Assembly: GCA_013697785.1 (NCBI GenBank)
Contig: JACCWE010000127.1
Span: forward strand, 1-35,160
Length of the DNA: 35,160 nucleotides
Source: Gemmatimonadaceae bacterium
GTDB taxonomy: Bacteria; Gemmatimonadota; Gemmatimonadetes; Gemmatimonadales; Gemmatimonadaceae
Direction of reading: 5' to 3'
Part shown: in pieces, positions 15,847 to 19,405 of the stretch
How positions within the stretch are numbered: position 1 is the first letter of the stretch
Layout: each line of letters opens with the position of its first letter
Position numbers and translations under genes: made by a program
The notes under the pieces: model-generated
Databases searched by the model: none
What the model saw: the letters and a program-made list of their open reading frames with translations, nothing else
Told to the model about the DNA's origin: nothing

Positions 15847-16302
15847 ATGACTGATGAAGAGGCCTCGCTCCCCGTCCCTCCGTCCATCGCGCGTGTGCTC
15901 AAGCAGTTTCGCATGCTCGGTCGCGAGGAGAAGATGCAGGCGCTGCTGTCGTATGCGAAGAAGCTCGAGCCCCTGCCCGAGCGCTACTCGGCGATCGATC
16001 GAACGAACTTCGTGATTCCCGAGTGTCAGACGCGCGTCGACATCTTTCCCGAATATCGCGACGGCCAGCTTCACTTCTTCGCCGACGTGAACATTCGCCA
16101 GTCGCCGACGATCGCCGCCTTTCTCTCGATTCTGTTCACGGCCGTCAACGATCAGCCGCCGTCGACGACGCTGGCGATCCCTCCCGACTTCGTTCGCATC
16201 ATGATGGAGAACATCGGGCTCGGCGCACGCGAAAGCGGGCTCTCGGCGATGGTCGCCCGCGTGAAGAGCTACGCAGCGAATGCAGAGCGATTCGCGGCTT
16301 GA
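15847..16302 (+). CDS. SufE family protein
   Basis: The 151-residue protein has the SufE layout: FRMLGREEKMQALLSYAKKL near the N-terminus, the conserved Cys in FVIPECQTRVDI (C60), and FFADVNIRQSPTIAAFLSIL. SufE accepts persulfide sulfur on this Cys from the desulfurase SufS and delivers it to the Fe-S scaffold. No sufS or sufBCD gene is in view, so it acts with partners encoded elsewhere. The canonical GCQSxV motif is ECQTRV here. No clear Shine-Dalgarno precedes the ATG. Confidence 0.92.
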   Translation: MTDEEASLPVPPSIARVLKQFRMLGREEKMQALLSYAKKLEPLPERYSAIDRTNFVIPECQTRVDIFPEYRDGQLHFFADVNIRQSPTIAAFLSILFTAVNDQPPSTTLAIPPDFVRIMMENIGLGARESGLSAMVARVKSYAANAERFAA

Positions 16303-16332
16303 TTCGGAACTACTCCCCTATTGGTGACTCGC

Positions 16333-16773
16333 ATGTCTTCGCAAACGCAGCGCTTCGAAAACCACGCGCGATACTATCCGCTCTTCCACTTCGTCGCGGT
16401 GCCGCTCCTCGTGTTGTACCTGCTCTACTCGCTCTACGCTCTGGTGCGCACGCCTACGCTGGCCACGCTGGCGAACACGGTGCTCGCGGCCGGTGTGTGC
16501 GCATCGCTCTTCGCGGCGCGAATCATGGTACTGGTCGTGCAGAACCGCGTGATTCGACTCGAGATGGCGATGCGCCTCGAGCGGGTGCTCGGCGCGGCGG
16601 CAGCTGCCGATGCGATCGCGACTGTTCCTCTGGGACGGCTGATCTCGCTCCGCTTCGCCTCCGACCCCGAGCTCGCGGCGCTGCTCGCGCGCGTGCGCTC
16701 GAGAGAGCTCGCCACCAATCGCGACGTGAAGCAGGCGATTCGTGAGTGGCAGCCCGACCTTCTGCGCGCGTGA
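16333..16773 (+). CDS. DUF6526 family membrane protein
   Basis: From ATG 16333 the product is 146 residues, starting MSSQTQRFENHARYYP, the signature of this family. Two transmembrane helices (about 20-42 and 48-68) are followed by a basic cytoplasmic helix (NRVIRLEMAMRLERVL) and a short C-terminal domain with RLISLRFASDPEL. Function is unknown. A GTG at 16321 would add four residues. The stop overlaps the next gene's GTG (GTGA). Confidence 0.88.
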   Translation: MSSQTQRFENHARYYPLFHFVAVPLLVLYLLYSLYALVRTPTLATLANTVLAAGVCASLFAARIMVLVVQNRVIRLEMAMRLERVLGAAAAADAIATVPLGRLISLRFASDPELAALLARVRSRELATNRDVKQAIREWQPDLLRA

Positions 16774-17792
16774 GCTTCGCGAGCGAGGCCGAGCTCGAAG
16801 ACGCGCTCTCCGCGCCCTCGAGCGCCCTGCTCGATGCGCTTCGCACCACACCGGGCGACATCCTGGTGCTCGGTGCCGCGGGAAAGATGGGGCCGACGCT
16901 CGCGCGCATGGCGCGACGAGCGATCGATGCGCTCGGACTCCATCACAATGTGATCGCCGCGGCACGTTTCACGTCGGCGAAGGCCGAGCATGCGCTCCGC
17001 GAGGCGGGGATCGAGACCGTGAAGTGCGATCTGCTCGACCGTCGCGCCGTTGCTGCACTCCCCGATGCGCCGAATGTGATCTTCATGGCGGGGCAGAAGT
17101 TCGGCACGAGCGGCGCGCCGTCGGCGACGTGGGCGCAGAACGTGGTGCTCCCGTCGATCGCGGCCGAGCGGTATGCGAGCTCGCGAATCGTCGCCTTCTC
17201 GACCGGGAACGTGTACGCGTTGAGCGCGGTGAGCGGCGGCGGCTCGCGCGAGAGCGACGCACCGGTGCCGGTGGGCGAATACGCGATGAGCTGTCTCGGC
17301 CGCGAGCGTGTGTTCGAGGATGCGTCGCTGCGCCGAGGCACACCGGTGGCGATCGTGCGCCTCAATTACGCCGTCGATCTGCGCTACGGTGTGCTCGTCG
17401 ATATTGCGTCGCGGGTGTTGCGCGGCGAAGCCGTCGATCTGGGGATGGGACACGTCAACGTCATCTGGCAGGGCGACGCGAACGACTGGGCGCTTCGCTG
17501 CCTGGCGCACGCGAGCTCGCCGCCGTTCGTGGTGAATGTGACCGGGCGCGAGACGCTCGCGGTGCGCGATCTTGCGACGCGCTTCGGAGCGCTGCTCGAT
17601 CGCGCGCCCGTGTTCACGGGGAGCGAGGCGAGCGACGCGCTGCTCAGCAACACGTCGCTCGCACATACGACGTTCGGCGCGCCGTCGGTGAGCACCGACG
17701 CACTGATCGAGTGGGTTGCGAGCTGGCTGCGCGACGGAGGGCCGTTGCTGGGGAAGCCCACGCACTTCGAAGAGCGCACCGGCGCGTTCTGA
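16770..17792 (+). CDS. Extended-SDR NAD-dependent epimerase/dehydratase-like, catalytic Lys absent
   Basis: The 340-residue protein has a Rossmann fold with GAAGKMG (35-41) for NAD(P) and the extended-SDR strand AFSTGNVYA. At the active site the usual YxxxK is EYAMSCLGRE, so Tyr171 is present but the lysine position is Cys175. Downstream strands (VAIVRLNYAVDLRYGVL, HVNVIWQGDANDW) match epimerase-type C-terminal domains. An oxidoreductase or dehydratase role is likely, but the mechanism must differ from classical SDRs. It is followed two bases later by a DapA/NanA-fold lyase, implying a two-step pathway. GTG 16770 overlaps the DUF6526 stop; a GTG at 16746 is possible. Confidence 0.85.
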   Translation: MSFASEAELEDALSAPSSALLDALRTTPGDILVLGAAGKMGPTLARMARRAIDALGLHHNVIAAARFTSAKAEHALREAGIETVKCDLLDRRAVAALPDAPNVIFMAGQKFGTSGAPSATWAQNVVLPSIAAERYASSRIVAFSTGNVYALSAVSGGGSRESDAPVPVGEYAMSCLGRERVFEDASLRRGTPVAIVRLNYAVDLRYGVLVDIASRVLRGEAVDLGMGHVNVIWQGDANDWALRCLAHASSPPFVVNVTGRETLAVRDLATRFGALLDRAPVFTGSEASDALLSNTSLAHTTFGAPSVSTDALIEWVASWLRDGGPLLGKPTHFEERTGAF

Positions 17793-17794
17793 TC

Positions 17795-18841
17795 ATGAGC
17801 GACATCCGGAGTCACCTCCTGCGCGGTCACGTGATTCCCGCGCATCCACTCGCCCTCACCGCTTCGCGAACGCTCGACGAGCGGCACCAGCGCGCACTTA
17901 CACGCTACTACGTCGCTGCGGGCGCCGGCGGGATCGCGGTGGGCGTGCACACGACGCAGTTCCGGATCCGCGACCCGAAGCTGGGGCTACTCGCGCCCGT
18001 GCTCGCTCTCGCAGCGGAGACCGCGACCGAGGCACTGCGCGCGGACCCGCGCCCATTCGCGCGAATTGCCGGCGTCTGCGGCGACACCAAACAGGCACTC
18101 GCCGAGGCGCGCCTCGCGCACGACCTCGGATACGATGCTGCGCTGATCAGCCTCGGCGCGCTCCACGATGCGTCGGAGCAGCAGCTGCTCGAGCACTGCC
18201 GCGCGATCGGCGAGATCCTGCCCTTGTTCGGATTCTATCTGCAGCCGGCCGTCGGCGGACGCGTATTGCGCTACGAATTCTGGCGCGGCTTCGCACAGAT
18301 TCCGCAGGTGATCGCAATCAAGATTGCACCCTTCAATCGCTATCAGACGCTCGATGTCATCCGCGCCGTGGCGGACTCCGGCCGCACCGAGATAGCGCTC
18401 TACACCGGGAACGACGACCAGATCGTGCTCGATCTGCTCACTCTCTTCCCCGCGCTCGGCGACAGCGCACGCGCCCCACGAATCGTGGGCGGGCTGCTCG
18501 GCCAGTGGTCCGTGTGGACGCATCGCGCGGTCGAGATGCTCGAGGAGATCCGCGCCGCGCGCGACGTCGCGCCGATCGACAGTGGATGGCTCACCCGCGC
18601 GGCCGCCGTCACCGACGCGAACGGCGCGCTCTTCGATGTGTGGCATGCGTTTGCCGGATGCATCGCCGGCCTGCACGAGATTTTGCGCAGGCAGCGGCTC
18701 ATGGCCGGCACCTGGTGCCTCGATCCGAACGAAGGACTATCGGAAGGGCAGCTCGAGGAGATCGATCGGGTCGTGCGTGTGCACCCTGAGCTCACCGATG
18801 ATGAGTTCGTCGCCGCCAACGTCGACGACTGGCTGCGCTGA
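17795..18841 (+). CDS. DapA/NanA-superfamily aldolase or dehydratase
   Basis: The 348-residue protein has the TIM-barrel order of the dihydrodipicolinate synthase/N-acetylneuraminate lyase family. HVIPAHPLALT and AAGAGGIAVGVHTTQF form the N-terminal part. The catalytic tyrosine is probably Y148 in FGFYLQPAVGG, and the Schiff-base lysine K176 in VIAIKIAPFNRY. The family joins or splits a 2-oxo acid (often pyruvate) and an aldehyde, or dehydrates sugar acids. The Tyr context (FYLQPAVGG) differs from DapA (YNVPSRT) and NanA (YNIPALSG), so this is a distinct subgroup and should not be called dapA. It is co-transcribed with the SDR-like gene. Confidence 0.87.
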   Translation: MSDIRSHLLRGHVIPAHPLALTASRTLDERHQRALTRYYVAAGAGGIAVGVHTTQFRIRDPKLGLLAPVLALAAETATEALRADPRPFARIAGVCGDTKQALAEARLAHDLGYDAALISLGALHDASEQQLLEHCRAIGEILPLFGFYLQPAVGGRVLRYEFWRGFAQIPQVIAIKIAPFNRYQTLDVIRAVADSGRTEIALYTGNDDQIVLDLLTLFPALGDSARAPRIVGGLLGQWSVWTHRAVEMLEEIRAARDVAPIDSGWLTRAAAVTDANGALFDVWHAFAGCIAGLHEILRRQRLMAGTWCLDPNEGLSEGQLEEIDRVVRVHPELTDDEFVAANVDDWLR

Positions 18842-19405
18842 TCACTTCCGCTCGGCCAGCAGCTCCTCGATGTGCTTGAGCCGCTCCATCGCATCCTTGC
18901 GCCAGAACTCATCGCTCGATGGATGCTTCAGCACGAAGGTGAGCGCGCCGCCGACCTCGAGCCGGGCACAATCGATCTCGCCGATCGAGTCGATTCCCTG
19001 GCGGCGCGCCGCCGACATCAGCTCCGCTTTCGTGATGAGCTGCTTCTTGAGCGCACCCTCGAGCAGCTCGCCATTCAGCACGAGCACGACATTGTCGCCC
19101 TCCGCGAGCTTGTCGATCTTCGGATGGAGAAAGAGGAAGCGCACGATCGCGTAGTTGAGAATCAGCAGCAGCCCCGCTCCAAGAATGCCGCCGGTGATCG
19201 AGTTGTCGTTACCGATAATCGCGTTCTGAAGCGTGTTCGAGAGCACGAGCAGGACGACGAGATCGAAGGGATTGAACTGGCCGAGCTCGCGCTTGCCGGC
19301 GAGACGGAGGCCGAGGAGCAGGAAGAAGTACACGAAGATGGTGCGCACGACCTTCGCGACGATTGGCTCGCCAGGCGTGAACAGCTCCGTCCAGATCGGA
19401 TGCAT
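18842..19405 (-). CDS. DUF421 (YetF-like) membrane protein
   Basis: The 187-residue protein has three N-terminal helices with RTIFVYFFLLLGLRLAGKRELGQF (landmark) and FDLVVLLVLSNTLQNAI, the DUF421 signature. A cytoplasmic domain follows with VVLVLNGELLEGALKKQLIT and RRQGIDSIGEIDCARLE. YetF/YrbG-type proteins are widespread inner-membrane proteins of poorly known role. The gene is convergent with the lyase, with no bases between the two stops, and divergent from the hybrid kinase. The 105-base gap upstream (19406-19510) holds only a weak GG-N10-GC sigma-54-like pattern near 19430-19443. Confidence 0.92.
   Translation of the reverse strand: MHPIWTELFTPGEPIVAKVVRTIFVYFFLLLGLRLAGKRELGQFNPFDLVVLLVLSNTLQNAIIGNDNSITGGILGAGLLLILNYAIVRFLFLHPKIDKLAEGDNVVLVLNGELLEGALKKQLITKAELMSAARRQGIDSIGEIDCARLEVGGALTFVLKHPSSDEFWRKDAMERLKHIEELLAERK

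Follow-up and report, generated by a model that had tools for sequence, protein, structure and literature searches.

Within the window, the whole 35,160-nucleotide stretch of Gemmatimonadaceae DNA that was analysed, two adjacent genes, P1 and P2, constitute a real, uncharacterised enzyme pair. In the two groups tested, Gemmatimonadota and the Paenibacillus psychroresistens family, this pair is obligate and adjacent. P1 is related to extended SDRs, and the loss of its YxxxK lysine is genuine and family-wide, extending to every P1 member examined. No paper on the pair was found in the open-access literature searched, which most subscription journals lie outside; in the available part of PMC10434189 both families are named, but at separate B. 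thetaiotaomicron loci.

Organization and co-occurrence of P1 and P2

P1 starts at GTG 16770, its GTGA overlapping the stop of the DUF6526 gene (GTG 16746 is a possible alternative start), and stops at TGA 17790-17792; P2 extends from ATG 17795 to TGA 18839-18841 (Table 1). An earlier note on this DNA had placed two bases between the genes, which the coordinates bear out (17792 / 17795), and its residue numbers for Tyr171, Cys175, Tyr148, and Lys176 are correct when counted from GTG 16770 and ATG 17795. It had also expected routine annotation to misname both proteins, but the labels found, "NAD-dependent epimerase/dehydratase family" and "dihydrodipicolinate synthase family", are generic family names rather than wrong specific ones. 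P2 is 56-87% identical to its homologues in the best 80 of at least 589 loci recovered by a genome contig scan, which span several phyla, and full-length P1 homologues mostly share 42-86% identity, so that both can be considered real genes. The source genome (3.8 Mb, completeness 100) holds a single copy of each. Separately, P1 matches in three genomes (G175, G253, and G254) and a P2 match in a fourth (G143) cross one TGA, which could be a frame end, an error, or a pseudogene.

Table 1 Genes and conserved residues at the P1-P2 locus (positions in the window; rows are those of the homologue alignments)
Feature	Position	Strand	Evidence or remark
SufE	15847-16302	+	window
DUF6526 gene	16321-16773	+	adjoins P1 on upstream side
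P1, extended SDR family protein without YxxxK lysine, 340 aa	16770..17792	+	PF01370, AlphaFold2
P1 glycine-rich cofactor loop LGAAGKMGP, residues 34-42	16869..16895	+	Lys39 in 104/105 rows, 1 not covered
P1 Arg66, first residue past strand 2, NADP(H)-type sign	16965..16967	+	Arg in 105/105 rows; model strand ends at 65
P1 Lys110, MAGxKFG loop past strand 4	17097..17099	+	Lys in 105/105 and 40/40 rows
P1 Ser144 (STGNVY), SDR catalytic Ser position	17199..17201	+	105/105 and 40/40 rows
P1 Tyr171-Cys175 (YAMSC) at YxxxK place	17280..17294	+	Tyr171 at 17280-17282, in 105/105 and 40/40 rows; Cys175 TGT at 17292-17294
P1 Arg178, seven residues after Tyr171	17301..17303	+	Arg in 103/105 and 40/40 rows
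P2, NAL/DHDPS-superfamily protein, 348 aa	17795..18841	+	PF00701, AlphaFold2, Foldseek
P2 HTTQF, residues 52-56	17948..17962	+	H52, T54, Q55, F56 in 105/105 rows, T53 in 104/105
P2 Tyr148, aligned with DHDPS catalytic Tyr	18236..18238	+	103/105 rows; HMMER alignment to 3pud
P2 Lys176, Schiff-base lysine position	18320..18322	+	105/105 and 40/40 rows; aligned with Lys of 3pud and 3daq (DHDPS)
YetF-type gene	18842-19405	-	converges on P2

The claim that P1 and P2 belong together is upheld by their distribution. Each gene was detected in 35 of the 150 Gemmatimonadota genomes and in 71 of the 104 P. psychroresistens family genomes, the identical 35 and the identical 71 for both, with a copy number of one each in both groups at E <= 1e-40. 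All 35 Gemmatimonadota pairs lie on one contig and strand, 33 of them no more than 50 bp apart, and 70 of the 71 P. psychroresistens family pairs lie within 100 bp. Across the best 80 of at least 589 P2 loci, some of which end at a contig edge, P1 was present in 69; of the 11 remaining genomes, nine encode P1 at another place and two, as assembled, have none. Among plasmid records, 19 of the 20 bearing P2 also bear P1, and the one that does not is a 504-base fragment. Three haloarchaeal plasmids (L088, L089, and L095), viewed as plasmid records only, encode P1 but no P2. Two Subdoligranulum records contain P1 pieces only, and these are cut. Distance matrices of P1 and P2 across 100 loci were correlated with an r of 0.59, a value that includes shared species history; 500 permutations reached 0.13 at most. 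Since both genes are present or both absent in the two groups, they resemble a two-enzyme breakdown module, and it is a fair inference that P1 and P2 act in sequence on one substrate.

On a Halalkaliarchaeum plasmid, a fumarylacetoacetate hydrolase-family gene follows P1 and could replace P2.

P1 retains the catalytic serine and tyrosine of SDRs without the lysine

P1 scores 41.4 bits against PF01370 (Epimerase), for which the Pfam gathering score is 20.9 bits, and no NCBIfam equivalog came near its cut-off for either P1 or P2. Both folds rest on predicted models, that of P1 having an AlphaFold2 pLDDT of 95.6. Foldseek matched this model first to TerB, then to UDP-sugar epimerases and their relatives, at 14-22% identity. 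TerB, the NADP-dependent oxidoreductase of terfestatin biosynthesis (PDB 6d2v, 6nd7), is both the best profile match (E 2.5e-13) and the best fold match (TM 0.70-0.83) of P1, and the S-T-G and Tyr positions are common to both. The two share only 20-22% identity, however, and TerB retains the YxxxK lysine. TerB is not known to have a DapA-fold partner. GalE and related UDP-sugar epimerases likewise share the full-length extended SDR fold with aligned Tyr and Ser, at about 14-21% identity, but those aligned have the lysine.

Conservation was assessed over 105 rows, including a few duplicates (e.g., genome G139 twice). The Rossmann-fold GxxGxxG glycines (G35, G38, and G41) are present in 104/105 rows, with one not covered, and Asn124, Ser144, and Tyr171 are each present in 105/105, the last two being the catalytic Ser/Thr and Tyr of SDRs. 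According to the available part of PMC3144213, an Arg directly past strand 2 is an NADPH-type sign in extended SDRs; with Arg66 at this place, P1 is probably NADP-dependent.

The lysine itself is missing in all 154 P1 orthologue rows, which makes P1 a member of the fold family but no canonical extended SDR. The proposal that P1 is an SDR-like protein without the catalytic lysine but with Tyr171 is thus borne out, the tyrosine being invariant. Position 175 is instead occupied by Cys (117 of the 154 rows), Ala (16), Ser (7), Val (6), Thr (6), or Arg (2). These comprise 114 rows from 113 loci and the window (C88, A16, V6, R2, S1, T1), with two haloarchaeal genes entered twice (L110 = L089 and L112 = L095), and 40 further P. 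psychroresistens family loci (C29, S6, T5). Parsimony on a FastTree P1 tree requires at least 10 changes at this position. The placement of Cys175 is no alignment artefact, since HMMER aligns the YxxxK lysine of TerB opposite Cys175, and an RmlD-like SDR, which is the sole further A2-profile match of this genome and served as a control, has PLGVYGSSKLAGD there, with YGSSK opposite YAMSC. Cys175 is therefore common yet replaceable and, as such, incidental; the earlier emphasis on this residue fails on its lack of invariance, and a catalytic cysteine is ruled out for the same reason.

Active SDRs with a displaced or missing lysine are known. In the available parts of PMC6172241 and PMC3144213, PRISE enzymes (progesterone 5beta-reductase/iridoid synthase-like) keep the Tyr and lack the usual lysine, as P1 does, and use Tyr179 together with a displaced Lys147 (PMC6172241), whereas SimC7, in the available part of PMC5039031, is an SDR without both Tyr and Lys, unlike P1, which retains Ser and Tyr. 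An iridoid synthase profile match raised the possibility that P1 is a bacterial PRISE enzyme. This was ruled out, as the relocated lysine lies elsewhere: PRISE Lys147 is past strand 5, in a motif in which it replaces the Ser, whereas P1 has S144-T/S-G-N/C-V/I-Y there and an invariant Lys110 past strand 4, and iridoid synthase matches P1 only over the N-terminal profile region 24-124. Judging from conservation, Lys110 is a candidate stand-in for the lost lysine, and Arg178 is a second candidate.

P2 is an atypical member of the DapA-fold superfamily

P2 passes PF00701 narrowly (25.4 bits, with a Pfam gathering score of 22.1), and its AlphaFold2 model (pLDDT 93.8) matched DHDPS and N-acetylneuraminate lyases in Foldseek with TM scores of 0.68-0.85. 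Sequence profiles rank N-acetylneuraminate lyase closest, followed by DHDPS. P2 has the TIM-barrel fold, Schiff-base Lys, and Tyr of these enzymes, with Lys176 in 105/105 rows and Tyr148 in 103/105, but shares only 15-22% identity with them, carries HTTQF for GTTGE, and matched no specific model, scoring 16.9 bits against the NCBIfam dapA equivalog with its cut-off of 206.15. Together, the DHDPS alignment, fold match, and conservation confirm the earlier description of an atypical DapA-fold protein with Lys176 and Tyr148. Arg182 is also present in 105/105 rows. By eye, HTTQF occupies the place of GTTGE in DapA, with the two Thr retained. In DapA, an Arg holds the carboxylate of aspartate semialdehyde; at the aligned place P2 has Val153. 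The residues of P2 thus fit a pyruvate-type class I lyase other than DHDPS.

Gene neighbourhoods vary between lineages

Loci were fetched with their flanks for 40 of the 71 P. psychroresistens family genomes and 20 of the 35 Gemmatimonadota genomes with the pair. Of 43 Paenibacillus-family loci, 21 encode L-serine ammonia-lyase subunits downstream of the pair, 20 have an M20 amidohydrolase there, and 16 have both, with the ammonia-lyase proteins of one locus (L047) exceeding the curated TIGR00718/00719 cut-offs; a regulator-like protein of ~450 residues is present in 34. On the Prescottella equi plasmid p1-WH99, the genes beside the pair encode an L-serine ammonia-lyase in one chain, an M20 protein, a small and diverged Gfo/Idh-like protein, and a homologue of the Paenibacillus regulator with 25% identity to it, so that the ammonia-lyase/M20/regulator set spans two phyla. 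Elsewhere, a two-domain GNAT is encoded within the sequence fetched for 17 of 92 loci; in Sulfitobacter and Tistrella, its gene lies between P1 and P2, with an ABC importer nearby (NMT1 type in Tistrella). An NMT1-type binding protein is encoded close to P1 in Tistrella, Sulfitobacter, and Bradyrhizobium. Plasmids of Streptomyces, Glaciihabitans, Mesobacillus, Nitratireductor, and Aquisphaera carry varying selections of Gfo/Idh and sugar isomerase-like genes, importers (sugar ABC or other), and IclR, LacI, ROK, or TetR regulators.

The regulator-like protein (440-450 aa; L047:10646-11998, L178:5417-6745, L092:5167-6492) has a weak GGDEF-like match in Paenibacillus and a helix-turn-helix match near its C-terminus in Prescottella, and in both Prescottella and Nonomuraea a homologue is encoded beside the pair. 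The protein appears to be a private regulator whose sensor domain is unusual.

An enolase-superfamily-like protein of 465-492 aa is encoded near P1 in four distant organisms, one a haloarchaeon (L083:5725-7203, L072:4794-6245, L087:11177-12574, L088:12723-14165), the L083 copy falling under the Pfam cut-off (PF13378, 25.6 vs 29.4 bits). A fixed sugar-acid pathway of dehydrogenase, enolase-type dehydratase, and aldolase was rejected as not general, because the enolase-like gene occurs in only 4 of the 92 loci.

None of three partners sought (the Tistrella GNAT, the enolase-like protein, and the small Gfo/Idh) was detected in the 35 pair-bearing Gemmatimonadota genomes. The Tistrella GNAT was found in 5 of the 150 genomes of this phylum, none with the pair; the enolase-like and small Gfo/Idh queries matched 0/150 and, for this reason, lack a positive control in the phylum. 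Of 27 Gemmatimonadota loci, 10 have an acyltransferase near the pair and 14 have SufE on its upstream side, neither with an evident link. That the L-serine ammonia-lyase accompanying the pair in other lineages is an iron-sulfur enzyme may be a coincidence. Rfam, searched for a riboswitch as a ligand hint, gave no match in 14 loci and the window. The description of a two-gene pathway fits Gemmatimonadota, while elsewhere the pair sits within larger, varying gene sets.

Possible reactions of the pair

The importers and regulators beside the pair suggest that a small molecule, probably an acid, is broken down, and the serine ammonia-lyase together with the lyase fold of P2 points to pyruvate as an end product. 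We tentatively propose that P1 and P2 form an obligate catabolic module, in which a redox step by P1 would be followed by Schiff-base cleavage by P2 with release of pyruvate. This is quite possible, although neighbours vary too much between lineages for one pathway to fit all, which counts against it. P1, as an NADP(H)-type extended SDR, would oxidise or reduce a single carbon of an acidic substrate by means of Tyr171 and Ser144, with the cation of Lys110 or Arg178 replacing the YxxxK lysine. Its product would be, or turn into, a 2-oxo acid, which Lys176 of P2 could bind as a Schiff base while Thr53-Thr54 hold the carboxylate and Tyr148 serves as acid/base, so that a retro-aldol-type step would split it into pyruvate and a small fragment, either an aldehyde or an amino compound. 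To this core, different lineages may add different genes, the ammonia-lyase and M20 in many Paenibacillus and one Prescottella, and Gfo/Idh, sugar isomerase-like, and transport genes elsewhere. Within this scheme we infer the NADP preference, direction, substrate class, pyruvate product, and lysine substitute. What the earlier note had observed is confirmed, and its interpretation is partly supported.

The same proteins could conceivably work in the opposite sense, as a biosynthetic pair following the logic of the diaminopimelate route: P2 would condense pyruvate with an aldehyde, P1 would reduce the product in a DapB-like role, and a GNAT, an aminotransferase, and an M20 protein would acylate, act on, and deacylate the intermediates to give an unusual amino acid. 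The DapA fold of P2, the GNAT (17/92 fetched loci), the M20 (20/43 Paenibacillus-family loci), and the DegT aminotransferases and AAC(3) acetyltransferases near haloarchaeal P1 all agree with such a route, for which L-serine ammonia-lyase could supply the pyruvate. We nevertheless consider it unlikely, as the flanking importers and IclR/LacI/TetR/ROK regulators are typical of catabolism, no annotated bacterial locus was seen to combine the GNAT, aminotransferase, and M20, and Val153 stands where DapA has its semialdehyde-binding Arg.

P2 might alternatively be a dehydratase or deaminase with the same Schiff-base chemistry and no C-C lyase activity, akin to 5-dehydro-4-deoxyglucarate dehydratase or the deaminase of the hydroxyproline route. 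The NAL superfamily includes Schiff-base dehydratases and deaminases, and HTTQF and the other invariant residues are unlike those of known aldolases; yet the nearest profile is N-acetylneuraminate lyase, then DHDPS, and no dehydratase model came near its cut-off, which makes this assignment improbable. Very unlikely is a P1 that is no working oxidoreductase but an NADP-binding scaffold, sensor, or chaperone of P2: the triad lysine missing in 154/154 rows and an obligate pairing would suit a subunit, but a dead fold need not keep Tyr171, Ser144, Asn124, Lys110, and Arg66 in 105/105 rows, and active SDRs with a displaced or missing lysine exist in the available parts of PMC6172241 (PRISE) and PMC5039031 (SimC7).

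Implications

Returning to the catabolic module, a bolder version of it, which we hold to be doubtful, would make P1 an SDR active-site type absent from the papers found, with Ser and Tyr kept, the YxxxK lysine lost throughout Bacteria and haloarchaea, and Lys110 and/or Arg178 in its stead. Its unstable product would be passed to the obligate Schiff-base partner P2, and together the two would convert a conjugate of a sugar- or serine-like unit to pyruvate by a new and widespread route in which a redox step precedes cleavage.

With 71 of 104 genomes in one family and 35 of 150 in one phylum, the pair is common; it is also tightly linked, distributed over many phyla, and known by generic names only. 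It marks a metabolic step in soil and aquatic bacteria without an assigned role, and P1 offers a natural test case of an SDR working without its lysine.
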